DNA from: Polychytrium aggregatum
Lineage: Eukaryota; Chytridiomycota; Chytridiomycetes; Polychytriales
NCBI RefSeq assembly: GCF_025602895.1
Contig: NW_026516273.1
Coordinates: 182,447 to 246,446, forward strand
Length of the DNA stretch: 64,000 bases
Reading direction: 5' to 3'
The notes beneath the pieces were generated by a model. The model worked only from the letters and a program-made list of their open reading frames with translations. It was not told the origin of the DNA and searched no databases. A program made the position numbers and the translations under genes. Shown here in pieces: positions 2,208 through 64,000 of this stretch. Positions within the stretch are counted from its first letter, which is position 1, and each line of letters starts with the position of its first letter.

Positions 2208-5200
2208 ATGCTGCGTATCTTTGGGTCTCTCTTGGTTCTGTGGCTGCTCTCCATCTTGGCCGACATGGTCGATGCCGTGCATCATGGATCCGTCGCGGTC
2301 AAGGTCGGCCTCATTTACGACATTGACGATCCGATCGACTTTCCCGAGAACCCGTATCTCCTGACGGCAATGCAGATGGCTTTCAACGAAATCAACAACA
2401 GCTCGACGATCCTGCCGAGTGCGTTCATGCGCCATTGACGCTGGTGCATGCAGACCCTTTCGCGTCGCTCGTTCTCATGCAAACCTCCGTCCGTGATCGA
2501 CGCCATGCTCACCCAGGACCCAATATGACCTTCATTGTGCTCGACGAGCAGATGTCACGCTACTGCCTGTCGTCGGCAGCAGCCGCGGCTCATTCAGCGA
2601 CGGAATGTAATGGTTCGAAGCTCGCTCTCTCGGCCTCACATGCACTTGCTGCACTTGCTGCACTTGCTGCACTTGCTGCACTTGCTGCACTTGCTGCACT
2701 TGCACTTGCTGCACCGAACTCGCCACTCACACGTGCGGCTCCTTGCCGGCGTTCGTTCCAGCGTCAGTCTCCTCGATATGATACAAAATGACGGCATCAA
2801 TGCTGTGATCGGAGACACAACCAGCGAGGTGGGGTGCGTCCGCCCGCGACGCTCTGTGCAAATCTCGTTGGATCATCGACTCACGCCTCTGCCATGTCTT
2901 CAGCAAAGCGAATACGAAGCAACCATATCCAGCTTCTATGATGTGAGTCTCGCTCTTCAGAGACCCGGCGACTGATCTGCCTGTTGCTTACTGACCTCGC
3001 TGCCCATCAACAGATCCTCCACATCGGTCTGTTCACCTCCGCAACCATACTCACCAACAGGACAGCATACCCGGTACGGTTCCAGCCGCACGCAGCCTGA
3101 CTGCTTGATGGCCCGATGTCCCGATGGCTCGGTGGTTGCCTCACAGGAGTGATCCCACAGGGGCCGTCTAACGCAATAGCCATCTCACCCGAGTTGTGCT
3201 TGCAGACCTATCTCTCCCTCATCCAGCCCAATATTGTGTATCTCCAAGCACTATTCGCCTTTGCCAGAGCCATGGGATGGCGATCGGTATGCGCCGTGTT
3301 GCCGAGCAGATCTGGGGAGCCGTGAGCGAGCCGAGTGATCCAACTGTCCGAGTGATCCGACTGTCTGAGCGATCCGACTGGTCCAGCGATCCAACTGGTC
3401 CGAGTGGTCTCGCCTCGGGGGCGAATCTCTCGTGTCGGCCGACTGATCTGCTCATCCGGCAACTCACAATCAGGTGGCTCTAATGTACAGTCGTGAGCCA
3501 TTTGGAACCACTGGTAAGCATGCCAGTGAGCCAGCCGCTGCAAATGTCGTCTCGATCTGTGGGTCGTATCGAGTTCCGAGCAGAGTGGATTGCCAGAGCC
3601 GAATCATGTTCACAAGCACGGACGATTGGGACACGCCACATTCACCCATGCGTCATGTCCTGCAGCAAGGGACGATGCCAAGTCCGTCGCCAACGCAATG
3701 GGATTCAATATCGTTCTCGAGCAGGTGGGAACTGCACCCGAGCCGGTGGAGCGACGGACAGGGGGGCACTGGTCCGGCCTGGATCTCTGGGCCGGGATCT
3801 GGGCTCTGTCAAACAACCCCGAGTGCCCAGTCCCAGAGTACCCACAGTCCACTGCCTGACTGCCTGGCTGCCTGACTGCCTGACTGCCTGGCTGCCTGAC
3901 TGCCTGACTGCCTGGCTGCCTGACTGCCTGACTGTCTGGCTGCCTGACTGCCTCATGACTCGCAATCGCCACCAGGGATTCTACGGACCCACTCAAGGGA
4001 ACCGCTCCGACCTGGCCATTCCTCTCGAGAATCTCCAAAAGTCAAGGGCAAAGATCATCATCGTCTGCGCCATCGCCCAGTACACATCCGATCTCTACTA
4101 CATGGCATATGGACGCGGCTTGGTGGGCCCAACATATGTCTGGATGGTCAGTGGCGCCGTCGGCCCAATGTCGGTGTCGCTGAGCGGGGTCGTCCAGGAT
4201 GCCTTCCCAGGTGCTCACACCGAACCGTGCAGGGCATCAACATCCCGTACTACAACTTCATGGACTTTTCTTGGTTCAACGGCGACCCGATACAAGCAGC
4301 ACAGGGATTTATATGGGGTTCGTCAGTCCATCACTTGGTGACATCGTTGTGGTGATGCCGTTGTGGTGGTATCATTGTGGTAGTATCGCCGTGATGCAAG
4401 GCCTGTTTCCTGATCGCAGTCCCATGGCCACTGTCGCCCACAGCTACTCAGAATGTCACGAACGGAGCCGGATACAACGAGTTCAACAGCAAGTGGAACA
4501 GCATGTCGCTCCAGAACGCAACCATGTATCCGCTGTTGTCGGGGGATCTGTGGGAGTGGGGTGTTCGGTATGATGTCGAGCCAGTTGTGCACATGTCGCA
4601 GAGCCGATGATCCGATCCCGCTCCCACTCTGTCGTTGAGTGAATCGGTGCAATTGTCATCTTTCTCATGCGAACAAACAACCTCCCATCCGTCTCAAGAG
4701 GGGTTTACGACGCCGCTTACATCATGGCACTGGCATGGGTAATACTCTGACGGCACAGTCGTGGACAATCGTGCACACTCGTGCACAGTCATGGAACGGT
4801 GGACACTCAGCAGCGAATCTGCGATTGCTCACCTCCATGTCGACGGTTGTCTCACAGACCAACCTCACTCGGATCTACCCGGACACCCCGTTCCTGCAGC
4901 TGCTGGCGACCAACTCGACGTATCCCTTGCGCGCCGTTGGTGATCTGATCTACGACGGCGCATCGGGATTCTCAATCTTCAATGACGATGGAATCATGGC
5001 GGTCGGTGGTCGAGATCGTTGTTGGACTTGGTCCGATGCTTCCTCTGGCAGAGGCAGTGCTCTGTCCGCCCAGCCGGGTCGGCGATGACAGTCCACAGTC
5101 CGTGCATGTCGCTCGAGTCACTGATTCAGACACCGATTCCCGACACGCCGATTCAAAAATCACCGATTCCCGACACGCCGATTCAAAAATCACCGATTCC

Positions 5201-8200
5201 CGACGCACCGATTCCAATATCGCTGTCGACAGGGTCCGTTTGTGATCTCGGTCGTTGTGTCGCAAAACAGCACCGTGGAATACAAGAATATTGCATACTA
5301 CGAAAACGACGAGATCATCACAGACTGTCACATGTGTCAATACTACAACTTTGATGGCTCAACCAAGGTGAGTGATCCAAGGCGGCCACCCCTGAGACTG
5401 GTGTCTGGGCCGTGGTTGCTGATGGGCCGCATCGCTCTTGGCAGGCCACTGCTAACATCCCGGTCCATGCTCTGCGGCGGTGCATCGACGACACACCTGC
5501 TGTTCACAACTCGCTCGGATGTCCAGGTTCCCTCCGACTCGCTCTTTGAAGGTGAGGGCCGACGCCGTCGCTCGCCGATGCACCACGTCCACAGACTAAC
5601 TCCGCGGACCAATTCCACGGCCAATTCCACGGACCACTCCATGGACCACCTCACGGACCCGCTTCAGTGTGTCCGCCTGGATGGCAGTCGTATTCCAGTG
5701 AAGTGGTGTCGCAGCTCTGTGTCCCATGTCCTGAGGGTATGCCTGGACTGCCTCGCACTCGGATGATACAGCGCTCGACGAAACGCAGACAGCACCCGCA
5801 TCGCTGCGGATGGTCGACACATAGGCTCCGCGGATAGTCGACGCATTGACCGTGCTGGTGCTCACAGATCGAATCCATTGCCACAGGAACATACAATCTG
5901 AACTCCAATTCGACCTGCAAGCCCTGTCCTGTTGGCGCGGTGTGCCATAATGCCAACATCATGATCGCCAAGGGCTATTGGTACAACGCAAATGCCTCGG
6001 CAATCGATTCCGCATTCTATCTGTGCGATGCAACCGCAAACTGTGAGCTCGTTGGTGCCCCACGGCCGCTGCTGGCATGCTGCTGGTGCGATCTCGATGG
6101 TGCAGATACTCACCATTCTGCCTTGAACAGGCTGTCCAAACGCATGCCCGATCGGTGGTGGAAACCAGTGCATCCACGAACACAGCGGAGTGTATGTATC
6201 GGCAGCGACTCGATCGAGATGGCGCTGGGAACACGAGGGAGGTTGGGTCGGTGGTATGGGCGCTGATGTGATGGATTGGATCGGTGGTATGGTCGCTGCT
6301 TTGAGGGTCGATGACAGAGTGGAAATGCATGCAGCACATCCACGCACAGCAGCACATTCGTGCATATGCAACCAACGGCGATGGCGACAACGGCGGCTGA
6401 CAGCTCGGGACTCTCCAGGCTCTGTTCGCAGTGTCCCAGCGGCCAGTACGAATGGGGTGGCCAATGCACCCACTGCGACAGCCTCGGCAGCAACATTGCT
6501 GTCGGAGTCGCGGCATTTGTTGCTATTTTCGTTGTCGTCTGCATTCTGTGTGTGATTCCAACATCCAAGGAGGGATTTCTGGTCGACCTGGTAAGCATTC
6601 GTGTTGCGAGGATGCGGCGAGGATGCGGCAAGAGCGGCAAGAGCATCGCCGTGGACCCTGCGGCGATTGGCTGTCTGGCAAGGAGAGACATGCTCCATGA
6701 ACTCACGCCGTCTCTGCATCCATCTCAGATATTTGTGTACCAGGTTGCCTACCTCCTGGACTTTGACCACACAACGGCCCTGTCTCGAGCCCTGGCGTTT
6801 CTGACCCTGAGCTTGAACATCCAAAGTGGCGGAAACGGATGCATCCTCCCACTCGACCAGTTTGCCAAAATGATCTCGGCCTATGTGATGGTGATGGCGA
6901 TGGTCGTCTGCCTGGGACTGTGGCATGTTCTGATCCAAGTGCTCAGGAGTCCGAATCGAGGCCCGCTGGCCAGGAGGGCCTGGAAGACGATAGTTCGGTG
7001 GTTTCCGTACCTCGACACCAGCTTCAAACACTCGCTGACTCGATCGGTCATCGTCTTGGCGCTGTTCAGCTTCAGTCCGGTGTACAGCACAGGTGAGATG
7101 CCAGCACAGTCGCCGGGGGGGGAGCGTGGTCGAGTGAGCAATGTCGACGAGGGAATGGCTTCGACGGGTGAATCGAATGGGTCAGTGCCTTGAATGGGTC
7201 AGCACTTTGAATGTGTCGGTGCTTGCATGAGGCGATGAACTGACCAGTGCTCTCCAGCCGTGACGATCCTGTCCTGTCGGGCCATCGAGGGGTTTCCATC
7301 GGTCGTCTGGGACTATCCGTCGGTCCAGGTGCGTTGCCGTTGCTTGCCGTTGCTTGCTGCTGGAGTGGAGGCAGTGCGTTTGAATCGGGTCACTCTGGAG
7401 TCGGACTGATCTGGGATCGATTCGACTCGACCCACCATGCCAACACCACTCCCACCACCGCTCTCACCGCCACCACTGTCACCATCGGCGGATCGGATGC
7501 CAGTGTTGGACCGATTCCCACACAACCGTGGCGGTGTTGTCTGGCATCGTCGTGGTGGTTCAAGTCATTGTGCTTCCCGGTGTCATCTTTCGTCAAGGGC
7601 TCGGTCTGCGAAGCAAGCAGCAACCCGAGCCAAATACACCGACTCTCGATGCTGATATCGCCAACGAAGCAGTTGTTGTCCCAATCGAATCAGAAGCAAC
7701 AGACCCACTCTATGTTCTGCATCGCTGCTACACCGAGCAATGCCGCTGGTGGACCGCCATCGACCTGATAGAGCGCTCCACGATCGTCGGACTGCCGCTG
7801 CTGCTCCGCTCGACAGGAGGTGGGTATCGGCCGCAACAACACCTGCACATGGCCGCACGACACTTGCACATGGCCGCACGACACTTGCACATGGCTTGTT
7901 GGATATCACACATCGCCCGAATCACCCAAGATCGTCCGTGGCATCTGACGCCATGTCCCGTCCACCGCAGACTATACACCCAGATATGCAGCGTTGTTCG
8001 TCCTGTGGATGTTCCTGCTTGTGCGGTATGTGGAAGTGGCCGGTGCGCTGATGTGGCCGATGCATTGTCAGTGATATCGATGGACGATTGATTCTGCTGC
8101 GTGCTGATGATCGAGCAGACTCGCCGTGCCTCAGAGGATGCTGCCTCGGCGAGTGCCTCCTGAGAGCGTCGCTCCGCTTCTGACACTCTGTCCGTCGACA

Positions 8201-8487
8201 GCGCCTTTGTGATGCCATACAGGCTGGTGGCCGACAACGCCGTCAGAATCATCGGATACCTGGCTTTGATCATCACATTCTCGTTGCAGCTTCGCCAGAA
8301 ATACCTCCTGGACCAGTATGGAATCGAATCGACCGACTCGCTGGTTCAAGAGACAGTCGCAACGATCATACCCTGTGTCCTGTTGGTTCCCACCAAGCTC
8401 TTCTCCAAGATCCCTTCGGCACAGAGGAAGCAAATCAGCAGTACGATTCGCTCGATTCGCTCAAAGGTCATCGAGGCCGGCAGTTGA
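2208..8487 (+). CDS. Receptor-like membrane protein: ligand-binding ectodomain, Cys-rich segment, multi-pass domain (left copy)
   Basis: A many-exon gene starting at ATG 2208 with a signal peptide (MLRIFGSLLVLWLLSILAD). The ectodomain resembles the ANF-receptor / periplasmic-binding type I fold. Pieces seen in order include INAVIGDTTSEV, ILHIGLFTSATILTNRTAYP, YLSLIQPNIVYLQALFAFAR, an exon from about 3983 (GFYGPTQGNRSD...AKIIIVCAIAQYTSD) and GINIPYYNFMDFSWFNGD. A Cys-rich segment follows near 6425-6480 (CSQCPSGQYEW...CTHC, like GCC2/GCC3 ephrin-receptor-type repeats). Several hydrophobic helices then run to the stop at 8487 (VAVLSGIVVVVQVIVLPGVI; the last cytosolic stretch is RKQISSTIRSIRSKVIEAGS). 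The order matches class C GPCR-like receptors, which are expanded in chytrids. Ligand and coupling are unknown. Introns carry minisatellites. The part from 3282 on is duplicated at 58819-64000 on the other strand. Exon limits are only partly resolved. Confidence 0.65.
2642..2712. repeat. Minisatellite, 9-bp unit CACTTGCTG, about 8 copies
   Basis: Perfect head-to-tail CACTTGCTG units between two receptor exons, so probably intronic. The open frames across it encode only AAL/HLL-type repeats. Confidence 0.9.
3856..3957. repeat. Minisatellite of CTGCCTGACTGCCTGG-type units in a receptor intron
   Basis: Units of 8 bp (CTGCCTGA / CTGCCTGG) arranged in a higher-order 24-bp pattern. The right arm copy is exactly 24 bp shorter here, one higher-order unit. 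It lies between the exon ending ...NAMGFNIVLEQ and the exon starting at about 3983, so it does not alter the protein. Confidence 0.9.
5120..5214. repeat. 30-bp tandem repeat, about 3 copies, in a receptor intron
   Basis: Unit reads CACCGATTCCCGACACGCCG plus ATTCAAAAAT. Two copies are perfect and a third is diverged. There are no spacers between units, so this is a plain minisatellite and not a CRISPR-like array. The copy in the right arm is the same length. Confidence 0.85.
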
Positions 8488-8911
8488 GTTGGGGCGAGTC
8501 CAGCCAAGTGTATTGTTACAAAGGAGAGGAAGATGGTGCTTCTCGTCTCGCTCCATGCTGCACCCGCCAGATCGAGCGTGCTCCCTGATGCCGATGCCGA
8601 TGCCGATGCCGTCGGCGAAGCAATGTTGCATCGCCGCATTTTTGCACCTCCCAATACATTCCAGCAGCACCACGGTTCTTCTGCAAGCACCGTTTGTCGA
8701 CTCTGGGCCATTCCCCCAACTCATCGATCCATCGGGATTGCGAGACCAAGCGTCCTGCAACATCGCTGTGGTGTCCACCTTGTCGTTGTTCACGGGTGCA
8801 GTTGGATGGGCTCAGCCAATGGTGGTGCTGGCGATGTGCAGGCTCGGGCGACAGCGGATCGACGGAGGCTCGGACGACAGAGGATCGACGGAGCCTCAAG
8901 ACCGACCCGGA
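8488..8911. other. Intergenic region between convergent receptor and CC2D2A genes
   Basis: About 420 bp of 3' flank shared by two converging genes. It contains a short GATGCC run near 8590-8610. No further gene is supported. Confidence 0.5.
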
Positions 8912-11900
8912 TTAGAGTGCCACGGACTGGTACTTGACGGCGATCATGATCCAGATCGAGCAAGCCGTTTCGGCGTACGGAATGACCTTGCACTGCAGGC
9001 CGAAGCGAACCTTGTCGGCTCGGGTCGCTATCAAATCGCGTGCTGCTGCAGCCTTGAGCAGCCCGTTGAAGAGCTTTGGAGGATCGAGATGATTGAACTG
9101 GCATGGAAACGCCTGCAGTCGTCGGCGTGGATGGGTCAGCCGCTGCAGAGAGTGCGATGCGAGGGTGTGGTCCTCGGCGCTGAGTGTTTGCCAGAGAGCG
9201 ATGGTGGGCCCAACAGCAATCGCTGGCCCGAACAGCGATGTCGTCCTCCACGGCAACGATGTTGGCAGACGCACCCACCTTGAACGTCGATCCATCAGGG
9301 ATCGATCGCCGAACGCCAGCTTCAAAGTATCCCCGTCCAACGAGATCACATTCGGACTGGCCCGTTCCGCCGCTGGAGAAATAGAGCTTCTGCAGCTCGT
9401 ACCCAGACAGGCACTGGCGCAACAGGTGGCCGAGATGCACATCCCAGATGCAACACATGTCCCTGTCCTGCCTGAACTCGGATATGTACTGCTTGATCTG
9501 GTCGGCGATTTCGAGCTCGGTCTGCCGCGAGCACCACGACGAGGGACATGGCCGGAGCGACAAGCCGAATCCTGGGGTCGCCGCGATCCTCATGGATCGG
9601 AGAGATTCTGCCGAAACCATCTTCCACTGCGACGGATCCGCCAAGTTGAAGCTGCAGCGGTCGACCGAGTCGCACGACTGAGGGGTGTGGGTGTGGATGT
9701 GGATGTGGATGTGGATGTGGGTGTGGGTGGATCGATGAATCCCACTCCACACACACCAGGTCGCTCCACACACACCAGGTCGCTCGTTCACGCACCATAC
9801 CGCCCAACACCGCACCATGCAATGCCTCACCTGGATATTGGCAAGGAGTGTCTCCCCGTTGAACAGACAGCCAATGTTGCGATATGGATGCGGGTCGTTG
9901 GGCTTGTACCGTATCCCACGCAGCGGGTCCCAGATATGAACATCGCCTGCCAGGCACCATGTCAGCATAGTCGATTGGCTTGCGTCTCTGTCTTTGGGTG
10001 ACCGACGGGCTCGCATGTCGAGCAGCTCGGTGTTTGAATGCCTGTCGCCTGCTCGGCACAACTTCTGGTGTCGAACACCACCAGAGCACCACCAGACCAC
10101 CACCAGACCCCCACCAGAGCACCATCGATGGCCCACTCACCAGACACATCAATCGTCACAACCCAGCAGGTTGCTGTGCCGTCTCGTCCAACCCCGCATG
10201 CAACATATGCATCCAGAGAAAACCCTTGGCGACGCAATCGAATGGCATCAGTAGCTGCCTGGCGCATCAGCTGGCCATCCCACCACATTCGTGGGCGGGC
10301 TCGGCACCTCAGTCGACAGTCCCGCCGCATCGCTCCGGGGCATCACTCGGACGCAGCGCTGACTCACCGAGAAGCAGATTGCACAGGAGTATGCTGTGGT
10401 CGTGGGCATCGCCATGGCCGGCACACAGAAAGGTGTGCAGACTCTGCCAGATATCGGCACTGGGTTGAATGCAGTTGTCAGTGCGTTGTTCGATACAGCC
10501 CACACGTCTGCCACAACATCCACTCCACCACTCCGTCACAGCACTCCATCGCTTCTTGACAGCAGCCCAGATATCCGTCGCACCCAGTCCCAGTATCCCG
10601 CTCTGTTGCGCATGATCGAAGCCACCGTCCTCCGAGCAACTGCAGTGCGTGATGTGGGCTGCTGCACGCCCGACGACATCATACTTTGGCTCACCGACAG
10701 GCTTGATTTTGTGGTACGGAATCAGAGAAACAAAGCGCAACGCATGTCGGGGGCTCTCGATGGAATCGGCTGTGGGATGTCGTTTGATCAGCGCCAGTCA
10801 CAAACAAGCTGATTCCTCAACCAACGGCCCGGTACTGAGTCCCATAGCCAGTGTCTCAGTCAATCCCGGCACGGATCTCAGCCGATCCCAGTGCTGATCT
10901 CAGCGATCTCGCAGCCGACGCCTCCTCGATGCTGACCCAATGACTCATCCCTGCAAAGCCGGCCGCCAGTCCTTTCGAGCAGCGATACCTTCGATCGGAT
11001 ATATGTATCCGGTGACTGGGCTGCGGTGGCCCTGTTCATCAAGTGCAAAGATCTTGACCAGCCGATTCGCATGGGTGCTTCGGATTTGCAGAAAGTCTGA
11101 CCACCACTGGCGACGGGATTGGATCGGATCGCAGACATTCGGCGCAGAGTCAGGTGCAGTCCTGCGGCCCAGCTGTCCTTTTTGTTTCAATAGCGCACCT
11201 GGCCCAGCTGTCCTGTGGCCTGCTGTGCGGTGGTGCTGTGGTCCTCTCCGAGGCTCGGAGCTCCTCGGCACCAAGGATGTCTGAGCCCGGCAGATGGTGC
11301 TGTCGAGAAGTGACTTGCCTGCTTTGCATAGAGGTGAAACAGACGAGCGGTATCCGTGATGGCACGCTCCTCCCGTTTGATCTAAACTTTCAAGAATCGA
11401 GCGCAGTGTCAGAGGCGATAGGCACGAGCGATGCACTTCCCATGAGCGAAGCGATTGGCAGGAACGATGCATTTCCCACCAGCGCGAAGGCTCTGCCGCC
11501 GGCCTCTCCAGACACTCAGGCTGAACTGCACAAGCTGCATCGGCGGCTCTGTCCACCGACCGACAGGATCATATCCATGCATCGCATACCAACCCACACC
11601 AACCCACACCAACCCACACCAACCCACACCAACCCACACCAACCCACACCAACCCACACCAACCCACACCAACCCACCAGAAACTCGAGCTCATCTCGAT
11701 CCAGGAATTGCGTCGGCTTTGGGAACAGCTCCAGGGTCAGCTCGACGAGCCCAGCCGTCAGCTGGCTGTTGCCAACCTCTCTCAGCTCGGCGAAAGCAGA
11801 GACTTTGTCAGCGACCAGCACCTGGGATTGTCCGAAAAATCGCAAGCCGTTGTGTCAGATACAGTGTCAGTGCCGGTGCTGGATGCTGGTGCTGGATGCT

Positions 11901-13480
11901 GGTGCTGGTGCTGGTGCTGGTGCCAATGCTGGATGCTCTGGTCCGGAGCACATCGTTACCTCTCGCCACTCGACCACAGCTGAGCCAATGACAGATCGGG
12001 TGAAGTGTCCGTCGGATCGGATGGCGACAAAGTGGAGCCGGTCGCCAATGCTGGATATCGACTGCAAATCGGCTTGCTGGAGCAGATGGCAATAGAGAGG
12101 GCGGATGAGAACCAATTGCTCGTGACAACAGGAGCCGATTGTACATGGCGATAGGAGCCAGTTGCAGATGCGGACCACCAGATCCGTCACGCCACCGTCG
12201 CAATCGAGTCAGACCGGAAGCTCAATCATCCACGATTCGCTGAAGCGGGGATCAGTCGTCGACGGGACCAGGGATGTCGAGAGTCGCTGTGCTCGGAATT
12301 GCACATCCAGACTGAGCCATGTCGATTCCTGCAGCACAAGAGCCATGTCAGCCGGCTTGCCGATCTCTCGGAATGCCCCATCACTTGCCTCCGGCTTGGC
12401 CCCGCCTGGTCGCCGCTGATCAAGGTCGATCGATCTTGATCCACCCTGATCGAGACTGGCTGGAGCTGGTCGAGACCAAGTCCTGATTGGTTGCGGCGCT
12501 TTCCCCAGCACCTTCCCAGCACCTTCCCAGCACCTTCCCCGCCCTTGCAGCACTCTTGCACAATGTCGGCAAACCTCCTGGATCTCCTCGAGCCCAAGGA
12601 ATGCTCTCCCTTGGCCAAGCTCGATTCTCAAATAGCGGCACCCAGGCTTTGTCGCTGTCGCTGGGACCTTTGCTCGTCCGCCATGATCTCGACCGACAGC
12701 GATGCAGGCTTCTTGCTCCATCGCATCTGCCGATCCCAAGGCTCGCACCGGGTCCGAGAGGCTCTGTCTGGACACCGTCGATACAGAGCGTCGTCAAAAT
12801 GGGCCGTGATGGACGAGGATCACAGGAGTCAGCAACTGAAGCATCGATGGCCAAAGGAAAGGGTCCCCAACCACATGCAACTCCAACCACATGCATCAAC
12901 AGCCACATCTCCAACCACACCTCCAACCTCAGTTCCTTGGAGACACGCTCATAGACATCTTCGATCAACCCGCTTGCGGCAATCGACTCTTGGATCTGTG
13001 TGAGCAAACAGAGTCAGTCTGGCTGTTGTGCTGGACGACCAAGGCAGTCCAACAACGGTGCAAGAACCATACATTGCGGTCAGACTCGTATTCGTCCAAG
13101 GCACTCATCGGCTCGACCAATGCAGATGCAAAGACGAAGCCCAGACCCGCCAGCGAGACAATCTCGCAACACTGCAGCCGAGCTTGGCGGCAACCTGGGC
13201 GGCAATCCGGCGGCAATCCGGCCGCAATCCGGCGGCAATATCGAGCCATTTGCATACCCTGCGCGCCAATATCGATGCCGACAACGATCCCGGACAGACC
13301 CAAGCACGATCCAGAACAGACCCGCACCAACCGACTTCTCTCAAGATCCCGTTGGCCCTGCAGCAGCTCACAGGCACCATGATACGCACCACAGGTATGT
13401 CTTTGGGCGGCATCCACCCAGCACAGTCGCTGGCATCTGCTCGTGCAATGGGCCGTTGCAAACGCAAGGGTCTGGAGCAT
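8912..13480 (-). CDS. CC2D2A: CC2D2A orthologue, ciliary transition-zone C2-domain protein (left copy)
   Basis: Multi-exon, minus strand, stop TAA at 8912-8914. Recognised CC2D2A blocks, N to C: a C2-like segment (STWLSLDVQFRAQ ... PRFSESWMIELP, near 12210-12330); RFVSLIPYHKIK near 10730; DIWQSLHTFLCAG then HSILLCNLLLG near 10390-10480; VHIWDPLRGIRYK followed by RNIGCLFNGETLLANIQ near 9830-9950; a helical segment ELEIADQIKQYISEFRQ near 9500; and a C-terminal block ending KVIPYAETACSIWIMIAVKY. CC2D2A is part of the MKS complex at the base of cilia and is kept only in flagellated lineages, so it marks a zoosporic fungus. The 5' end is unresolved: ATG 13480 is the furthest plausible start, and a safe exon with good splice sites is IQESIAASGLIEDVYERVSK near 12955. 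An essentially identical copy lies at 53826-58394. Confidence 0.75.
11590..11676. repeat. Minisatellite, 10-bp unit CCAACCCACA, about 9 copies
   Basis: Perfect tandem units within the CC2D2A gene, between two coding blocks, so probably intronic. The right-arm copy has the same length. ORFs rich in PTHTNPHQ and its antisense GWCGLVWV arise only from this repeat. Confidence 0.9.
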
Positions 13481-13618
13481 GACGAAGCAGCATCACAGCC
13501 CGTCAGTCCGTCAGTCCGTCAGTCCGTCAGTCACTCCGCGAGAGAGTGGGAATGCAGACTCGTTGACCAATGTGCTCCAGCAGATGGCTCTGGTGACGAA
13601 CCCCCGCCGCTCGAGGAC

Positions 13619-15203: not shown

Positions 15204-15392
15204 GCTCAGTGGCGATTGAGCCGGCGCATCCAGCTCTTGGACTCACACAAGACTCGATTCGAGACTGGAGGATGCTGCTGGGGCCTGCAGGCGCATGGTG
15301 GACTCGGCACCGATCCGAATCCTCTGAAACTGGCTCTGGTGGTGATGACATTGATGCAATTGTCCTCCACGACATATCATGACTACATTGAC

Positions 15393-15692
15393 GTTGATAC
15401 CTTTGTGATGGTCACTTGCTCGGGTCCGGGAGTAATGATATTGTCATTGGTATGGATATATATCGAATGATCAATCAAATGTTGGTTATTTCCCCTGATG
15501 TATCCTCGGACAATGTTTCATTCATTGCTTCCGACCAAAGGCGAAGGACCATCCATGATGTGATCGCCGTTCCCTGTGTTTCCTTAACAAAGAACACGAA
15601 TCATAGCCTGTGATTGGGCGACAAGATGATGCGGAGGGAAGGGAGTCGAGAATCTCGGCATTTTTTCATCAAGTGGATAGGTGTATATCAAC
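15393..15692. other. Single-copy 5' flank of the Ca2+-ATPase gene, next to the repeat breakpoint
   Basis: The first 300 bp of unique DNA inside the inverted repeat. It is more AT-rich than the arm and runs up to ATG 15693, so it presumably holds the ATPase promoter. No further feature seen. Confidence 0.5.
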
Positions 15693-39471: not shown

Positions 39472-44641
<5,170 letters not shown>

Positions 44642-45408: not shown

Positions 45409-45429
45409 ATAGACTGTAAGAAGCTGTAG
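44882..45429 (+). pseudogene. Fanzor (eukaryotic TnpB-family RNA-guided nuclease), C-terminal fragment with frameshift
   Basis: The fragment starts near ETEVVIAFGNASW (frame 2), then shifts by one base between about 44930 and 44945 into frame 1. There it continues SSPRRLRFAKYF, VNEFNTSQVCSHC, FVRSCASCHTLW and DRDINASRNM, to a stop at 45427-45429. These are the family marks: the RuvC-II Glu in NEFNTS, the CxxC...CxxC zinc ribbon, and the RuvC-III Asp in DRDxNAxxN. The RuvC-I Asp and all N-terminal domains are absent from this window. Fanzor proteins are eukaryotic descendants of TnpB carried by various transposons, and are known from chytrids such as Spizellomyces. With the frameshift and lost N-terminus, this copy cannot be active. 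A spliced intron cannot explain the shift, because too few bases separate the two frames. Confidence 0.8.
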
Positions 45430-51600: not shown

Positions 51601-51743
51601 CGCTCGAGGAGATGAATGAATCTGAGGAGACCGATGCGAGCGACAGAAGGCCGTGGTAGAGACGCTTGGAACAGCCAAAAGGGCCAGCAGACACCGGAGA
51701 GAGGCGAATGCGAGCCAAGAACCGGACGAGAAGGCGGGTGCAT
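45668..51743 (-). CDS. GON4L-like nuclear protein with N-terminal SANT/Myb domain, about 1,750 residues
   Basis: Seven exons join in phase on the minus strand: 51743-49073, 48924-48822, 48745-48604, 48433-48046, 47819-47632, 47510-47451 and 47380-45668. The first has a SANT/Myb repeat (KSWSRLEDARLIEAVQNNGE, KWGLIAASLGRKANECIERH) and then a long disordered Ser/Pro-rich region. Exons 2-5 match the GON4L pattern: acidic LDLLFEDYLETDDADD, a helical STDQISMLRRQLSQNFQFLV, DPTFTNLYDIPNLERVPDV, and a second Myb-like segment (EDQLLLKGLQFFG...AHLLPTRTHQQLNSRIK). GON4L/YY1AP-type proteins are transcriptional co-regulators acting in the nucleus, so DNA or chromatin binding is likely. The start could also be ATG 51527, directly before the SANT domain. 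The C-terminal end is uncertain: a GTAAGC donor follows ITAKG, so the last 60-70 codons may be intron. Fusion of the two halves rests on splice phase alone. Confidence 0.65.
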
Positions 51744-52130
51744 GGCGCGCGATGTCCGCAATGTTGCCAGATTTGGTCAAATGGACATGGGCCAGGAAAA
51801 GGCAAACTGGAGGCCTTCTGCGGAGGCTGGTGACAGGAATATGGCCGCTCCTGGCGACAATCACCAAGGCACCAGGGTGTGCATCCGGCGCCTCGAATGA
51901 TGTTCTCGACACAACCGGGACAGAGATGCAAGGGCCTCGATGTCAATGTAGTCATGATATGTCGTGGAGGACAATTGCATCAATGTCATCACCACCAGAG
52001 CCAGTTTCAGAGGATTCGGATCGGTGCCGAGTCCACCATGCGCCTGCAGGCCCCAGCAGCATCCTCCAGTCTCGAATCGAGTCTTGTGTGAGTCCAAGAG
52101 CTGGATGCGCCGGCTCAATCGCCACTGAGC

Positions 52131-53687
52131 CTAGTTCTGAATCTGCAGCATGCCGAGCTGCATCAGCTTCTGCAACTTTGCTGCCAGATCGGAATCGGCG
52201 CTTCTGGTCACCCTGCAGAATCATCCGGCTCAGTCAACGCTTGTCGGCCCAGAGGTGCTCGCCCAGCGATCATGGCCCAGCGATCATGGCCCAGCGATGC
52301 TCGCTCGGCGGTCGGCTGGCACCACTCCAGCTGGCACCACTCCAGCTGGCACCACTCCAGTTGGCACCACTCCAGTCGCCCGGACATGACTTACTCTGCC
52401 AGGAGCAGAGGATTGCTCCGACCTGCAGCAATGATTCTCTGGATTCTGGGATCTCGCAATGCCGCCTGAGCCTCGGGATCTCGCTGCACCCGCTCGACCA
52501 GCTCCTGTTCGTGAGGCGGAAGTTGCTGCTGGAGCTCGACGGCCGGCTTTGTGGTCCTGCTGCGAGTGCTCTGTGGCTCCACTACTTCCAGATGGGATCC
52601 CATCTGGCCGGCAATCTCCCGGAAAGCCATCAGCAAGTCTGGTCTGGTTGAAGCGTATTTGCGGATGCAAGTCTGTGGATCGCGCTGCATCTCCTCGAGG
52701 ACCACTGCAAAGAGCGGATCGTCCATGGCCCGACGCAGACCAGGCTTTGCCTCGATGGTCTCGATAAAGTCGGGTGTGATCCACTCTGGACATGGAGCAG
52801 CTGCGGTTAGAGCTGCGGACTGGGCAGATGCGGTGGTGGCAGATGCGGCGCTGATGGATGTGGTGTCGATGGATGCAATGCCGATGGATGCGGTGCTGGT
52901 GGATGTGGTGCTGGTGGATGTGGTGCTGGTGGATGTGGTGCTGGTGGATGTGGTGCTGGTGGATGCAGCCAGGATCGAGCGTCTCTTGCGTCCCAGTTCC
53001 CACACTTTCGCAGCGACCATACCCTGCTTGTTGGCGAGAGCTTGTCCCATCGCCTGCTGCACCTCGCTGAAGCGAAGGCTCGACTCGTCGGTCGTCTTTG
53101 GACGGATGAAGGGCATTGGTTCTGCGGCACTGGTCTGGTCGGATTGCTTGGACTCGTTGGGCTGGTTGGGCTGCTTGGGCTGCTTGGGCTGGTTGAACGG
53201 CTTGGGAACAGAAGCAGCCGCTCGACTGAAGAAACCCTTCTTGAGTCCTCCAAAGTCGGTCGAGGCTGGTGTGTCCGGGGCCGTTTCCGTCGGCTGGCAT
53301 GGCAGTCAGGATGGATGGGCGAGGGACAGAGGAACCACATCAGCACGGCCGAGGGACAGAGGAGCCACAGCAGCACGGCCAATGCACATCCCTTCGCGAG
53401 AAGGACATCGGACAAGACATCCCAACAAGCACCATGCCGAATGCACACCTTGGTCGCAGCTGCTTCTTGTGCCTTGAGGCCGGCCTTGGGAGCCCGGTCG
53501 GTGCCGGGTGTCAGCACTGTCGAGTGGGAGTCGCAGGTCAGGGCTCGTCGCTGCCTGCTGGCTGATGCAACAGCACCGACTTCCGATGCAAAGCGGCCGA
53601 TTCCGGCCAATGCAGAGACACCGATTCTGCTCGCAACGCACCCGATGCTGGCCAGAGTCGCTGATGCTGGGCCATGAAGACGCTCAT
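52131..53687 (-). CDS. STI1/HOP DP-domain-like protein (right copy)
   Basis: Mirror copy of the gene at 13619-15203, with the same four-exon plan and an intact reading frame. The KKGF motif is followed by Phe-Ser here, where the left copy has Ser-Ser (base 14077 versus its partner 53229). Most other differences lie in introns 1 and 2. The last intron is 28 bp shorter. Both copies look able to make protein, so this is a recent or homogenised duplicate rather than a pseudogene. Its 3' end faces the GON4L-like gene across the breakpoint. Confidence 0.7.
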
Positions 53688-53825
53688 GTCCTCGAGCGGC
53701 GGGGGTTCGTCACCAGAGCCATCTGCTGGAGCACATTGGTCAACGAGTCTGCATTCCCACTCTCTCGCGGAGTGACTGACGGACTGACGGACTGACGGAC
53801 TGACGGGCTGTGATGCTGCTTCGTC

Positions 53826-56800
53826 ATGCTCCAGACCCTTGCGTTTGCAACGGCCCATTGCACGAGCAGATGCCAGCGACTGTGCTGGGTGGATGCCGCC
53901 CAAAGACATACCTGTGGTGCGTATCATGGTGCCTGTGAGCTACTGCAGGGCCAACGGGATCTTGAGAGAAGTCGGTTGGTGCGGGTCTGTTCTGGATCGT
54001 GCTTGGGTCTGTCCGGGATCGTTGTCGGCATCGATATTGGCGCGCAGGGTATGCAAATGGCTCGATATTGCCGCCGGATTGCGGCCGGATTGCCGCCGGA
54101 TTGCCGCCCAGGTTGCCGCCAAGCTCGGCTGCAGTGTTGCGAGATTGTCTCGCTGGCGGGTCTGGGCTTCGTCTTTGCATCTGCATTGGTCGAGCCGATG
54201 AGTGCCTTGGACGAATACGAGTCTGACCGCAATGTATGGTTCTTGCACCGTTGTTGGACTGCCTTGGTCGTCCAGCACAACAGCCAGACTGACTCTGTTT
54301 GCTCACACAGATCCAAGAGTCGATTGCCGCAAGCGGGTTGATCGAAGATGTCTATGAGCGTGTCTCCAAGGAACTGAGGTTGGAGGTGTGGTTGGAGATG
54401 TGGCTGTTGATGCATGTGGTTGGAGTTGCATGTGGTTGGGGACCCTTTCCTTTGGCCATCGATGCTTCAGTTGCTGACTCCTGTGATCCTCGTCCATCAC
54501 GGCCCATTTTGACGACGCTCTGTATCGACGGTGTCCAGACAGAGCCTCTCGGACCCGGTGCGAGCCTTGGGATCGGCAGATGCGATGGAGCAAGAAGCCT
54601 GCATCGCTGTCGGTCGAGATCATGGCGGACGAGCAAAGGTCCCAGCGACAGCGACAAAGCCTGGGTGCCGCTATTTGAGAATCGAGCTTGGCCAAGGGAG
54701 AGCATTCCTTGGGCTCGAGGAGATCCAGGAGGTTTGCCGACATTGTGCAAGAGTGCTGCAAGGGCGGGGAAGGTGCTGGGAAGGTGCTGGGAAGGTGCTG
54801 GGGAAAGCGCCGCAACCAATCAGGACTTGGTCTCGACCAGCTCCAGCCAGTCTCGATCAGGGTGGATCAAGATCGATCGACCTTGATCAGCGGCGACCAG
54901 GCGGGGCCAAGCCGGAGGCAAGTGATGGGGCATTCCGAGAGATCGGCAAGCCGGCTGACATGGCTCTTGTGCTGCAGGAATCGACATGGCTCAGTCTGGA
55001 TGTGCAATTCCGAGCACAGCGACTCTCGACATCCCTGGTCCCGTCGACGACTGATCCCCGCTTCAGCGAATCGTGGATGATTGAGCTTCCGGTCTGACTC
55101 GATTGCGACGGTGGCGTGACGGATCTGGTGGTCCGCATCTGCAACTGGCTCCTATCGCCATGTACAATCGGCTCCTGTTGTCACGAGCAATTGGTTCTCA
55201 TCCGCCCTCTCTATTGCCATCTGCTCCAGCAAGCCGATTTGCAGTCGATATCCAGCATTGGCGACCGGCTCCACTTTGTCGCCATCCGATCCGACGGACA
55301 CTTCACCCGATCTGTCATTGGCTCAGCTGTGGTCGAGTGGCGAGAGGTAACGATGTGCTCCGGACCAGAGCATCCAGCATTGGCACCAGCACCAGCACCA
55401 GCACCAGCATCCAGCACCAGCATCCAGCACCGGCACTGACACTGTATCTGACACAACGGCTTGCGATTTTTCGGACAATCCCAGGTGCTGGTCGCTGACA
55501 AAGTCTCTGCTTTCGCCGAGCTGAGAGAGGTTGGCAACAGCCAGCTGACGGCTGGGCTCGTCGAGCTGACCCTGGAGCTGTTCCCAAAGCCGACGCAATT
55601 CCTGGATCGAGATGAGCTCGAGTTTCTGGTGGGTTGGTGTGGGTTGGTGTGGGTTGGTGTGGGTTGGTGTGGGTTGGTGTGGGTTGGTGTGGGTTGGTGT
55701 GGGTTGGTGTGGGTTGGTATGCGATGCATGGATATGATCCTGTCGGTCGGTGGACAGAGCCGCCGATGCAGCTTGTGCAGTTCAGCCTGAGTGTCTGGAG
55801 AGGCCGGCGGCAGAGCCTTCGCGCTGGTGGGAAATGCATCGTTCCTGCCAATCGCTTCGCTCATGGGAAGTGCATCGCTCGTGCCTATCGCCTCTGACAC
55901 TGCGCTCGATTCTTGAAAGTTTAGATCAAACGGGAGGAGCGTGCCATCACGGATACCGCTCGTCTGTTTCACCTCTATGCAAAGCAGGCAAGTCACTTCT
56001 CGACAGCACCATCTGCCGGGCTCAGACATCCTTGGTGCCGAGGAGCTCCGAGCCTCGGAGAGGACCACAGCACCACCGCACAGCAGGCCACAGGACAGCT
56101 GGGCCAGGTGCGCTATTGAAACAAAAAGGACAGCTGGGCCGCAGGACTGCACCTGACTCTGCGCCGAATGTCTGCGATCCGATCCAATCCCGTCGCCAGT
56201 GGTGGTCAGACTTTCTGCAAATCCGAAGCACCCATGCGAATCGGCTGGTCAAGATCTTTGCACTTGATGAACAGGGCCACCGCAGCCCAGTCACCGGATA
56301 CATATATCCGATCGAAGGTATCGCTGCTCGAAAGGACTGGCGGCCGGCTTTGCAGGGATGAGTCATTGGGTCAGCATCGAGGAGGCGTCGGCTGCGAGAT
56401 CGCTGAGATCAGCACTGGGATCGGCTGAGATCCGTGCCGGGATTGACTGAGACACTGGCTATGGGACTCAGTACCGGGCCGTTGGTTGAGGAATCAGCTT
56501 GTTTGTGACTGGCGCTGATCAAACGACATCCCACAGCCGATTCCATCGAGAGCCCCCGACATGCGTTGCGCTTTGTTTCTCTGATTCCGTACCACAAAAT
56601 CAAGCCTGTCGGTGAGCCAAAGTATGATGTCGTCGGGCGTGCAGCAGCCCACATCACGCACTGCAGTTGCTCGGAGGACGGTGGCTTCGATCATGCGCAA
56701 CAGAGCGGGATACTGGGACTGGGTGCGACGGATATCTGGGCTGCTGTCAAGAAGCGATGGAGTGCTGTGACGGAGTGGTGGAGTGGATGTTGTGGCAGAC

Positions 56801-58394
56801 GTGTGGGCTGTATCGAACAACGCACTGACAACTGCATTCAACCCAGTGCCGATATCTGGCAGAGTCTGCACACCTTTCTGTGTGCCGGCCATGGCGATGC
56901 CCACGACCACAGCATACTCCTGTGCAATCTGCTTCTCGGTGAGTCAGCGCTGCGTCCGAGTGATGCCCCGGAGCGATGCGGCGGGACTGTCGACTGAGGT
57001 GCCGAGCCCGCCCACGAATGTGGTGGGATGGCCAGCTGATGCGCCAGGCAGCTACTGATGCCATTCGATTGCGTCGCCAAGGGTTTTCTCTGGATGCATA
57101 TGTTGCATGCGGGGTTGGACGAGACGGCACAGCAACCTGCTGGGTTGTGACGATTGATGTGTCTGGTGAGTGGGCCATCGATGGTGCTCTGGTGGGGGTC
57201 TGGTGGTGGTCTGGTGGTGCTCTGGTGGTGTTCGACACCAGAAGTTGTGCCGAGCAGGCGACAGGCATTCAAACACCGAGCTGCTCGACATGCGAGCCCG
57301 TCGGTCACCCAAAGACAGAGACGCAAGCCAATCGACTATGCTGACATGGTGCCTGGCAGGCGATGTTCATATCTGGGACCCGCTGCGTGGGATACGGTAC
57401 AAGCCCAACGACCCGCATCCATATCGCAACATTGGCTGTCTGTTCAACGGGGAGACACTCCTTGCCAATATCCAGGTGAGGCATTGCATGGTGCGGTGTT
57501 GGGCGGTATGGTGCGTGAACGAGCGACCTGGTGTGTGTGGAGCGACCTGGTGTGTGTGGAGTGGGATTCATCGATCCACCCACACCCACATCCACATCCA
57601 CATCCACATCCACACCCACACCCCTCAGTCGTGCGACTCGGTCGACCGCTGCAGCTTCAACTTGGCGGATCCGTCGCAGTGGAAGATGGTTTCGGCAGAA
57701 TCTCTCCGATCCATGAGGATCGCGGCGACCCCAGGATTCGGCTTGTCGCTCCGGCCATGTCCCTCGTCGTGGTGCTCGCGGCAGACCGAGCTCGAAATCG
57801 CCGACCAGATCAAGCAGTACATATCCGAGTTCAGGCAGGACAGGGACATGTGTTGCATCTGGGATGTGCATCTCGGCCACCTGTTGCGCCAGTGCCTGTC
57901 TGGGTACGAGCTGCAGAAGCTCTATTTCTCCAGCGGCGGAACGGGCCAGTCCGAATGTGATCTCGTTGGACGGGGATACTTTGAAGCTGGCGTTCGGCGA
58001 TCGATCCCTGATGGATCGACGTTCAAGGTGGGTGCGTCTGCCAACATCGTTGCCGTGGAGGACGACATCGCTGTTCGGGCCAGCGATTGCTGTTGGGCCC
58101 ACCATCGCTCTCTGGCAAACACTCAGCGCCGAGGACCACACCCTCGCATCGCACTCTCTGCAGCGGCTGACCCATCCACGCCGACGACTGCAGGCGTTTC
58201 CATGCCAGTTCAATCATCTCGATCCTCCAAAGCTCTTCAACGGGCTGCTCAAGGCTGCAGCAGCACGCGATTTGATAGCGACCCGAGCCGACAAGGTTCG
58301 CTTCGGCCTGCAGTGCAAGGTCATTCCGTACGCCGAAACGGCTTGCTCGATCTGGATCATGATCGCCGTCAAGTACCAGTCCGTGGCACTCTAA
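53826..58394 (+). CDS. CC2D2A: CC2D2A orthologue (right copy)
   Basis: Mirror copy of the left CC2D2A gene, stop TAA at 58392-58394. All diagnostic blocks are intact and identical where compared: STWLSLDVQFRAQ near 54985, RFVSLIPYHKIK near 56570, VHIWDPLRGIRYK near 57360, and the C-terminal block up to SIWIMIAVKY. One base difference near the presumed 5' end (partner of 13364, at 53942) is silent (Leu) in the frame opening at ATG 53826. In an overlapping antisense frame it makes a stop, which favours the CC2D2A reading. The true start is unresolved, as in the left copy. Confidence 0.75.
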
Positions 58395-58818
58395 TCCGGG
58401 TCGGTCTTGAGGCTCCGTCGATCCTCTGTCGTCCGAGCCTCCGTCGATCCGCTGTCGCCCGAGCCTGCACATCGCCAGCACCACCATTGGCTGAGCCCAT
58501 CCAACTGCACCCGTGAACAACGACAAGGTGGACACCACAGCGATGTTGCAGGACGCTTGGTCTCGCAATCCCGATGGATCGATGAGTTGGGGGAATGGCC
58601 CAGAGTCGACAAACGGTGCTTGCAGAAGAACCGTGGTGCTGCTGGAATGTATTGGGAGGTGCAAAAATGCGGCGATGCAACATTGCTTCGCCGACGGCAT
58701 CGGCATCGGCATCGGCATCAGGGAGCACGCTCGATCTGGCGGGTGCAGCATGGAGCGAGACGAGAAGCACCATCTTCCTCTCCTTTGTAACAATACACTT
58801 GGCTGGACTCGCCCCAAC
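58395..58818. other. Intergenic region between convergent CC2D2A and receptor copies
   Basis: Mirror image of 8488-8911. No separate feature seen. Confidence 0.5.
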
Positions 58819-61800
58819 TCAACTGCCGGCCTCGATGACCTTTGAGCGAATCGAGCGAATCGTACTGCTGATTTGCTTCCTCTGTGCCGAAGGGATCTTG
58901 GAGAAGAGCTTGGTGGGAACCAACAGGACACAGGGTATGATCGTTGCGACTGTCTCTTGAACCAGCGAGTCGGTCGATTCGATTCCATACTGGTCCAGGA
59001 GGTATTTCTGGCGAAGCTGCAACGAGAATGTGATGATCAAAGCCAGGTATCCGATGATTCTGACGGCGTTGTCGGCCACCAGCCTGTATGGCATCACAAA
59101 GGCGCTGTCGACGGACAGAGTGTCAGAAGCGGAGCGACGCTCTCAGGAGGCACTCGCCGAGGCAGCATCCTCTGAGGCACGGCGAGTCTGCTCGATCATC
59201 AGCACGCAGCAGAATCAATCGTCCATCGATATCACTGACAATGCATCGGCCACATCAGCGCACCGGCCACTTCCACATACCGCACAAGCAGGAACATCCA
59301 CAGGACGAACAACGCTGCATATCTGGGTGTATAGTCTGCGGTGGACGGGACATGGCGTCAGATGCCACGGACGATCTTGGGTGATTCGGGCGATGTGTGA
59401 TATCCAACAAGCCATGTGCAAGTGTCGTGCGGCCATGTGCAAGTGTCGTGCGGCCATGTGCAGGTGTTGTTGCGGCCGATACCCACCTCCTGTCGAGCGG
59501 AGCAGCAGCGGCAGTCCGACGATCGTGGAGCGCTCTATCAGGTCGATGGCGGTCCACCAGCGGCATTGCTCGGTGTAGCAGCGATGCAGAACATAGAGTG
59601 GGTCTGTTGCTTCTGATTCGATTGGGACAACAACTGCTTCGTTGGCGATATCAGCATCGAGAGTCGGTGTATTTGGCTCGGGTTGCTGCTTGCTTCGCAG
59701 ACCGAGCCCTTGACGAAAGATGACACCGGGAAGCACAATGACTTGAACCACCACGACGATGCCAGACAACACCGCCACGGTTGTGTGGGAATCGGTCCAA
59801 CACTGGCATCCGATCCGCCGATGGTGACAGTGGTGGCGGTGAGAGCGGTGGTGGGAGTGGTGTTGGCATGGTGGGTCGAGTCGAATCGATCCCAGATCAG
59901 TCCGACTCCAGAGTGACCCGATTCAAACGCACTGCCTCCACTCCAGCAGCAAGCAACGGCAAGCAACGGCAACGCACCTGGACCGACGGATAGTCCCAGA
60001 CGACCGATGGAAACCCCTCGATGGCCCGACAGGACAGGATCGTCACGGCTGGAGAGCACTGGTCAGTTCATCGCCTCATGCAAGCACCGACACATTCAAA
60101 GTGCTGACCCATTCAAGGCACTGACCCATTCGATTCACCCGTCGAAGCCATTCCCTCGTCGACATTGCTCACTCGACCACGCTCCCCCCCCGGCGACTGT
60201 GCTGGCATCTCACCTGTGCTGTACACCGGACTGAAGCTGAACAGCGCCAAGACGATGACCGATCGAGTCAGCGAGTGTTTGAAGCTGGTGTCGAGGTACG
60301 GAAACCACCGAACTATCGTCTTCCAGGCCCTCCTGGCCAGCGGGCCTCGATTCGGACTCCTGAGCACTTGGATCAGAACATGCCACAGTCCCAGGCAGAC
60401 GACCATCGCCATCACCATCACATAGGCCGAGATCATTTTGGCAAACTGGTCGAGTGGGAGGATGCATCCGTTTCCGCCACTTTGGATGTTCAAGCTCAGG
60501 GTCAGAAACGCCAGGGCTCGAGACAGGGCCGTTGTGTGGTCAAAGTCCAGGAGGTAGGCAACCTGGTACACAAATATCTGAGATGGATGCAGAGACGGCG
60601 TGAGTTCATGGAGCATGTCTCTCCTTGCCAGACAGCCAATCGCCGCAGGGTCCACGGCGATGCTCTTGCCGCTCTTGCCGCATCCTCGCCGCATCCTCGC
60701 AACACGAATGCTTACCAGGTCGACCAGAAATCCCTCCTTGGATGTTGGAATCACACACAGAATGCAGACGACAACGAAAATAGCAACAAATGCCGCGACT
60801 CCGACAGCAATGTTGCTGCCGAGGCTGTCGCAGTGGGTGCATTGGCCACCCCATTCGTACTGGCCGCTGGGACACTGCGAACAGAGCCTGGAGAGTCCCG
60901 AGCTGTCAGCCGCCGTTGTCGCCATCGCCGTTGGTTGCATATGCACGAATGTGCTGCTGTGCGTGGATGTGCTGCATGCATTTCCACTCTGTCATCGACC
61001 CTCAAAGCAGCGACCATACCACCGATCCAATCCATCACATCAGCGCCCATACCACCGACCCAACCTCCCTCGTGTTCCCAGCGCCATCTCGATCGAGTCG
61101 CTGCCGATACATACACTCCGCTGTGTTCGTGGATGCACTGGTTTCCACCACCGATCGGGCATGCGTTTGGACAGCCTGTTCAAGGCAGAATGGTGAGTAT
61201 CTGCACCATCGAGATCGCACCAGCAGCATGCCAGCAGCGGCCGTGGGGCACCAACGAGCTCACAGTTTGCGGTTGCATCGCACAGATAGAATGCGGAATC
61301 GATTGCCGAGGCATTTGCGTTGTACCAATAGCCCTTGGCGATCATGATGTTGGCATTATGGCACACCGCGCCAACAGGACAGGGCTTGCAGGTCGAATTG
61401 GAGTTCAGATTGTATGTTCCTGTGGCAATGGATTCGATCTGTGAGCACCAGCACGGTCAATGCGTCGACTATCCGCGGAGCCTATGTGTCGACCATCCGC
61501 AGCGATGCGGGTGCTGTCTGCGTTTCGTCGAGCGCTGTATCATCCGAGTGCGAGGCAGTCCAGGCATACCCTCAGGACATGGGACACAGAGCTGCGACAC
61601 CACTTCACTGGAATACGACTGCCATCCAGGCGGACACACTGAAGCGGGTCCGTGAGGTGGTCCATGGAGTGGTCCGTGGAATTGGCCGTGGAATTGGTCC
61701 GCGGAGTTAGTCTGTGGACGTGGTGCATCGGCGAGCGACGGCGTCGGCCCTCACCTTCAAAGAGCGAGTCGGAGGGAACCTGGACATCCGAGCGAGTTGT

Positions 61801-64000
61801 GAACAGCAGGTGTGTCGTCGATGCACCGCCGCAGAGCATGGACCGGGATGTTAGCAGTGGCCTGCCAAGAGCGATGCGGCCCATCAGCAACCACGGCCCA
61901 GACACCAGTCTCAGGGGTGGCCGCCTTGGATCACTCACCTTGGTTGAGCCATCAAAGTTGTAGTATTGACACATGTGACAGTCTGTGATGATCTCGTCGT
62001 TTTCGTAGTATGCAATATTCTTGTATTCCACGGTGCTGTTTTGCGACACAACGACCGAGATCACAAACGGACCCTGTCGACAGCGATATTGGAATCGGTG
62101 CGTCGGGAATCGGTGATTTTTGAATCGGCGTGTCGGGAATCGGTGATTTTTGAATCGGCGTGTCGGGAATCGGTGTCTGAATCAGTGACTCGAGCGACAT
62201 GCACGGACTGTGGACTGTCATCGCCGACCCGGCTGGGCGGACAGAGCACTGCCTCTGCCAGAGGAAGCATCGGACCAAGTCCAACAACGATCTCGACCAC
62301 CGACCGCCATGATTCCATCGCCATTGAAGATTGAGAATCCCGATGCGCCGTCGTAGATCAGATCACCAACGGCGCGCAAGGGATACGTCGAGTTGGTCGC
62401 CAGCAGCTGCAGGAACGGGGTGTCCGGGTAGATCCGAGTGAGGTTGGTCTGTGAGACAACCGTCGACATGGAGGTGAGCAATCGCAGATTCGCTGCTGAG
62501 TGTCCACCGTTCCATGACTGTGCACGAGTGTGCACGATTGTCCACGACTGTGCCGTCAGAGTATTACCCATGCCAGTGCCATGATGTAAGCGGCGTCGTA
62601 AACCCCTCTTGAGACGGATGGGAGGTTGTTTGTTCGCATGAGAAAGATGACAATTGCACCGATTCACTCAACGACAGAGTGGGAGCGGGATCGGATCATC
62701 GGCTCTGCGACATGTGCACAACTGGCTCGACATCATACCGAACACCCCACTCCCACAGATCCCCCGACAACAGCGGATACATGGTTGCGTTCTGGAGCGA
62801 CATGCTGTTCCACTTGCTGTTGAACTCGTTGTATCCGGCTCCGTTCGTGACATTCTGAGTAGCTGTGGGCGACAGTGGCCATGGGACTGCGATCAGGAAA
62901 CAGGCCTTGCATCACGGCGATACTACCACAATGATACCACCACAACGGCATCACCACAACGATGTCACCAAGTGATGGACTGACGAACCCCATATAAATC
63001 CCTGTGCTGCTTGTATCGGGTCGCCGTTGAACCAAGAAAAGTCCATGAAGTTGTAGTACGGGATGTTGATGCCCTGCACGGTTCGGTGTGAGCACCTGGG
63101 AAGGCATCCTGGACGACCCCGCTCAGCGACACCGACATTGGGCCGACGGCGCCACTGACCATCCAGACATATGTTGGGCCCACCAAGCCGCGTCCATATG
63201 CCATGTAGTAGAGATCGGATGTGTACTGGGCGATGGCGCAGACGATGATGATCTTTGCCCTTGACTTTTGGAGATTCTCGAGAGGAATGGCCAGGTCGGA
63301 GCGGTTCCCTTGAGTGGGTCCGTAGAATCCCTGGTGGCGATTGCGAGTCATGAGGCAGTCAGGCAGCCAGACAGTCAGGCAGTCAGGCAGCCAGGCAGTC
63401 AGGCAGTCAGGCAGCCAGGCAGTCAGGCAGTGGACTGTGGGTACTCTGGGACTGGGCACTCGGGGTTGTTTGACAGAGCCCAGATCCCGGCCCAGAGATC
63501 CAGGCCGGACCAGTGCCCCCCTGTCCGTCGCTCCACCGGCTCGGGTGCAGTTCCCACCTGCTCGAGAACGATATTGAATCCCATTGCGTTGGCGACGGAC
63601 TTGGCATCGTCCCTTGCTGCAGGACATGACGCATGGGTGAATGTGGCGTGTCCCAATCGTCCGTGCTTGTGAACATGATTCGGCTCTGGCAATCCACTCT
63701 GCTCGGAACTCGATACGACCCACAGATCGAGACGACATTTGCAGCGGCTGGCTCACTGGCATGCTTACCAGTGGTTCCAAATGGCTCACGACTGTACATT
63801 AGAGCCACCTGATTGTGAGTTGCCGGATGAGCAGATCAGTCGGCCGACACGAGAGATTCGCCCCCGAGGCGAGACCACTCGGACCAGTTGGATCGCTGGA
63901 CCAGTCGGATCGCTCAGACAGTCGGATCACTCGGACAGTTGGATCACTCGGCTCGCTCACGGCTCCCCAGATCTGCTCGGCAACACGGCGCATACCGATC
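58819..64000 (-). CDS. Receptor-like membrane protein (right copy, 5' part outside window)
   Basis: Mirror copy of the left receptor from its stop codon (58819-58821) back to the exon encoding LQALFAFARAMGWR. The signal peptide and first exons lie beyond the window. The multi-pass domain and Cys-rich segment match the left copy. One coding-region difference is visible: GFSIFNDDG in the left copy reads GFSIFNGDG here (base 4985 versus 62321). One intron is 24 bp shorter. No frameshift or stop is seen in the recognised exons, so both copies may be functional. Confidence 0.65.

Follow-up and report, generated by a model that had tools for sequence, protein, structure and literature searches.

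Fold-back contigs occur in assemblies of structurally heterozygous diploids and are usually recognised by read depth. On chromosomes, potential inversions of ~4.1 to 102.6 kb (median ~39.0 kb) have been described in diploid Candida albicans; their breakpoints lie in long inverted repeats, most of them gene-containing, and an inversion of ~32 kb was seen by PCR (PMC6591007). In yeast, fold-back in single-stranded DNA has been investigated with inverted repeats whose spacers measured up to 30 kb (PMC10164571). The locus analysed here, from the chytrid Polychytrium aggregatum, resembles the Candida case in that the organism is a diploid fungus and the 36.5-kb core between its repeats is comparable in size, but the Candida repeats are established on chromosomes (PMC6591007), whereas here the second arm stops at a contig end and is known solely from the assembly. 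A fold-back followed by inverted duplication would parallel the yeast system; however, the yeast fold-back requires inverted repeats at the fold (PMC10164571), whereas the inner sides of the junctions here carry no homology above background. Set against either precedent, a core of 36.5 kb would be unremarkable.

The window (the whole 64,000-nucleotide stretch analysed) comprises bases 182447-246446 of contig C388 (NW_026516273.1). Comparison of the window with itself by BLASTN aligned 3282-15392 (arm A, forward strand) with the reverse complement of 51942-64000 (arm A′, reverse strand) across 12,111 columns with nine mismatches and two gaps, and a base-by-base alignment likewise bore out the inverted repeat that the original prediction had placed at these positions; no inverted match exceeded 16 bp in a shuffled version of the window (n = 1). 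The two arms are thus near-identical and in opposite orientation, as expected of a chromosomal inverted repeat, and they lie on either side of a core of 36,549 bp (15393-51941) in which copy number varies by stretch. Over 12,059 aligned bases, the arms differ by nine substitutions (0.075%), by a 24-bp indel at 3851-3874, where a 24-bp unit is tandemly repeated, and by a 28-bp indel at 15008-15035, equal to two 14-bp units; the same base-by-base alignment of 3282-15392 with 51942-64000 contained no single-base indels. The two tandem-repeat indels had been recognised previously, but the accompanying claim that nothing else interrupts the match did not hold, as the nine substitutions also separate the arms. 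Eight of these nine fall within 714 bp (13364-14077), while ~8.4 kb of the arms is substitution-free; nine randomly placed positions clustered as tightly in 0 of 100,000 trials. Base 64000 is the final base of C388 (246,446 bp); the repeat thus ends outward merely where the contig stops, and position 3282 is not a biological edge. Arm A′ is cut off there, 569 bp beyond the last arm-arm difference (the 24-bp indel), and its outer side lies past the contig end.

Exon matches support the expectation of two complete genes per arm. A CEP76 gene occupies 8915-13255 (reverse strand) in arm A, where a 658-amino-acid protein (P0001) was aligned exon by exon, and 54051-58391 (forward strand) in arm A′, where the exon matches are identical to those in arm A. 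This gene had been labelled CC2D2A, a name that we rejected: the only Pfam models that the 658-amino-acid record matches at E values up to 0.01 are three for CEP76 (C2, peptidase-like and C-terminal), and the exon matches likewise identify CEP76; a search of solved structures with a CEP76 frame returned no significant match. The second gene encodes an STI1/HOP DP-domain protein (like BJ171DRAFT_529556), with exons matched from residue 31 on at 13783-15200 (forward strand) in arm A and at 52134-53523 (reverse strand) in arm A′, the latter corresponding to the P0002 form. The database cluster of this STI1-like protein has two members, both on one contig, and its listed sequence is the A′ form. 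A receptor gene, also proposed for the arms, is not backed by these searches, as none of the three supposed receptor frames matched a Pfam family and a protein search with one of them found no match. Within the core, domain matches place a P-type cation ATPase (largest open frame at 16831-18921, forward strand) beside the left inner junction (15392/15393) and a Myb-domain gene (49008-51776, reverse strand) beside the right inner junction (51941/51942); the latter had been called GON4L-like, and its recognisable domains are of Myb type only. The core further contains a BPG-independent phosphoglycerate mutase, a protein kinase whose C1 domain match lies slightly below the cut-off, and a myosin-head frame next to chitin-synthase frames; at gathering scores, no Rfam family matched in the 64-kb window.

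The passage from the Myb-domain gene side into arm A′ is the single junction that creates the repeat, and it contains no N. There is no perfect microhomology between this junction (51942) and the left one (15392), where arm A passes into the ATPase side of the core, and the inner 500-bp sides of the two junctions align locally with a score of only 18, which was equalled or exceeded by 183 of 200 random pieces. The lack of N at 51942, together with junction homology that does not rise above background, counts against an overlap misjoin at a repeat, and the same lack of homology gives no support to homology-driven flipping outside the arms. A simple misjoin had earlier been argued against for another reason, namely that different unique sequence (a Ca2+-ATPase versus a GON4L-like gene) adjoins the two inner edges. 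That argument is invalid, because one junction at 51942, whether false or specific to one haplotype, suffices to produce the arrangement and 15392 need not be a real boundary.

To interpret the divergence of the arms, the ploidy of the assembly matters. The assembly (64,678,306 bases in 418 contigs) retains both haplotypes at most tested loci and is of mixed ploidy: 50 proteasome matches, which we grouped into 14 loci, fell on two contigs at 11 of the 14, with equal or nearly equal scores, and on one contig at the other 3, so that two copies are expected of any gene that has a single locus per haploid genome. Between the members of five contig pairs treated as allelic, substitutions amounted to 0.055-0.228%, with few indels (1 to 24 bp) and a longest substitution-free run of 1.0-2.4 kb in pairs that are only ~3.6 kb long. 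This range derives from seven partly overlapping comparisons (two of the five pairs were measured twice), chosen from 15 locus pairs by the presence of one partner at 99.2% or more across the whole locus; the eight comparisons left out involved the duplicated families C370/C117/C386 and C180/C397/C290. Of these, the C180/C397 pair, at about 0.5-1% substitutions, could likewise be allelic, in which case the range would be wider. The divergence between the arms falls within the allelic range as it stands.

Genome searches with pieces of the locus returned different copy numbers for the arms and for what surrounds them. The segment 9000-15392 is present twice at full length, both times on C388, the other matches being short (up to ~100 bp), and 5000-9000 is present twice in near-identical form on C388; three contigs carry relatives at 86-87%, and weaker matches exist besides. 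A count of exactly two is that of two alleles in a haplotype-retaining assembly. At the outer end, seven matches were obtained for 3200-5100, namely the two arms, relatives at 87-91% on C290, C180 and C397, 333 bp on C101 and 65 bp on C223; apart from the 333 bp on C101, no near-identical outer end of A′ was thus found on another contig. By comparison, 46000-51900 and C388:100001-102000 each have one copy in the assembly, 1-1344 has one apart from ~100-bp matches at 72-75%, and 16000-20000 has a near-identical copy on C101 as well as weaker paralogues. For 19800-46000, the searches scored the best 39 of 521 and the best 39 of 1345 candidates; among the matches listed were one C101 island, paralogues and dispersed repeats, and as the window's own place was missing from these listings, their silence on further copies proves nothing. 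The description of the core as single-copy therefore stands for 46000-51900 but not for 16029-19831 and 20673-23324, which are copied on C101, or for 44777-45428, which is a dispersed repeat.

The copies on C101 form three islands, corresponding to 1345-3532 (forward strand; outside and just into arm A; 0.137% substitutions), 16029-19831 (in opposite orientation on C101; 0.132%) and 20673-23324 (0.189%), with order and orientation changed relative to C388. We considered whether C101 is a plain second haplotype of C388 and rejected this, given that the islands are reordered and reoriented and that C101:698001-702285, beside one of them, has no listed match elsewhere; the islands may be either alleles or duplications. 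Being rearranged near-identical copies inside a long contig, they provide the best independent argument that a real rearrangement took place. Relatives of 1957-8459 are found in pieces on C180 at 82-98% identity, bases 103-1309 of C388 match C180 at 98%, and sequence common to C180 makes up both ends of C388. Over its full length, C180 has no inverted self-match of at least 300 bp.

We give a probability of about one half to the reading that C388 is a fold-back contig whose arms are two versions of the same locus, an arrangement brought about either by a heterozygous inversion of the core or by a wrong walk in assembly; this weighting, like those of the alternatives below, is a judgement and was not computed. 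Allelism of the arms, and inversion of the core, are each what we infer to be most likely. C388 would then run from one version of a ~12-kb segment (A) through the core and back into a second version (A′) until the contig stops, with A and A′ as the alleles that a diploid fungus carries at a single locus. The likeliest real cause would be a heterozygous two-break inversion of ~36.5 kb, with the core in opposite orientation on the two homologues, such that both core ends abut the segment; alternatively, the second allele may have been wrongly joined by the assembler. As with other fold-back contigs, C388 ends inside an inverted self-copy whose divergence is allele-like. Consistent with this, A′ stops 569 bp past the last difference, beyond which the two versions become indistinguishable; the arm divergence is in the allelic range, and the segment count is two, as for a single-locus gene; and three neighbouring pieces (1345-3532, 16029-19831 and 20673-23324) have a second allele-like copy on C101, though a rearranged one.

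Several results pull against allelic arms. Because 46000-51900, C388:100001-102000 and most of 1-1344 are single, the region looks collapsed, and a collapsed-looking region should not show two alleles of only one segment. The distribution of differences (~8.4 kb free of substitutions and 8 of 9 clustered in 714 bp) also contrasts with the allelic pairs, for which the longest run was 1.0-2.4 kb, although these pairs span only ~3.6 kb. Moreover, a simple heterozygous inversion might leave a contig with the other flank carrying the core tail, and neither 46000-51900 nor 15406-15800 was found on another contig, although assemblers may trim such tails. Two facts thus stand opposed, the allele-like arms and the single-copy surroundings, and we weighted the former, together with the terminal position of A′, slightly more.

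The same single-copy surroundings favour a true inverted duplication within one chromosome, the region being either homozygous or present only once, and we regard this as a serious contender at somewhat less than even odds. The arms (at least 12.06 kb) and the 36.5-kb core would have arisen by fold-back or template switching, followed by gene conversion. If the tracts at 46000-51900, at C388:100001-102000 and across most of 1-1344 appear once because they are a collapsed homozygous tract, then two distinct arms must be two places, and ~8.4 kb without a substitution followed by eight in 714 bp is the pattern of patchy gene conversion. A duplication would also suit a neighbourhood rich in near-identical rearranged pieces (the C101 islands and the C388 ends common to C180), the lack of any other contig with a second right core end or, apart from 333 bp on C101, a near-identical outer end of A′, and an STI1-like protein cluster whose two members lie on one contig. 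The contig would end where A′, further out, becomes indistinguishable from A, and the true arms may be longer, including the left stem. However, A′ runs just to the contig end, so that the sequence beyond it is unseen, the arm divergence sits in the allelic range, and the assembly yielded no right flank bearing the arm tail. Rather doubtful, in our assessment, is a palindrome-like locus in which the arms would continue past the contig end and include a collapsed left stem, the core could flip, and the centriolar gene CEP76 and the STI1-type gene would be held in two gene-converted copies per chromosome.

Least likely is a pure artefact, in which a chimeric read or wrong walk would have appended a reversed 12-kb piece of the other allele and the junction at 51942 would exist in no molecule: the extra piece is terminal on the contig, 12 kb is a length typical of one long read and the assembly retains both haplotypes at most tested loci, but a chance chimera would rarely join sequences 36 kb apart, a loop of 36 kb is not expected from ordinary fold-back reads, the junction homology is not above background, and A′ does not resemble a poorly polished tail, as the differences between the arms are substitutions and whole tandem units, with no single-base indels.

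The observation of the inverted repeat is confirmed, and its biological meaning is unproven. If the arms are alleles, as we prefer, then C388 overstates the gene number (two CEP76 and two STI1-like genes) and points to a heterozygous inversion in an early-diverging, diploid fungus; if they are instead a real inverted duplication, the locus would be a gene-bearing repeat able to flip 36 kb, amid several near-identical rearranged pieces. The functional readings offered in the original prediction (a flipping core, a folded chromosome end or a doubled gene dose) are hypothetical. Its suggestion that arm depth equal to core depth would reveal an artefact needs care: with both arms assembled, a homozygous true repeat would by reasoning also give arm depth equal to that of the core, and two alleles would give about half. 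Literature retrieved under the species or genus name included no title concerning this locus.

The neighbourhood also holds repeats and paralogues of other kinds. A further copy of the P-type ATPase, at C101:688744-691739, matches window positions 16495-19480 at 95-97% and lies ~40 kb from the near-identical one. Starting 16 bp past the copy of 1345-3532, C101:737459-739430 is bounded by inverted repeats of 309-312 bp spanning ~2 kb and resembles a transposon of the terminal-inverted-repeat type; part of the same 309-312-bp repeat recurs near the start of C388. In the core, the dispersed element at 44777-45428 (~640 bp) has at least 39 other places at 88-95% and encodes, at 44845-45426, a Cas12f1-like TNB domain (PF07282); we take it to be the tail of a TnpB/Fanzor-type gene. 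A SINE-like sequence of ~170 bp at 24483-24663 occurs in at least 31 places across the genome at 78-82%. Near the end of C101, a satellite array (766406-785866) is built of units of ~2.0-2.3 kb that are also present in C131, C182 and C193. One contig, C112, starts with CCTAA repeats (bases 1-160), equivalent to TTAGG units, unlike the TTAGGG familiar from many fungi.
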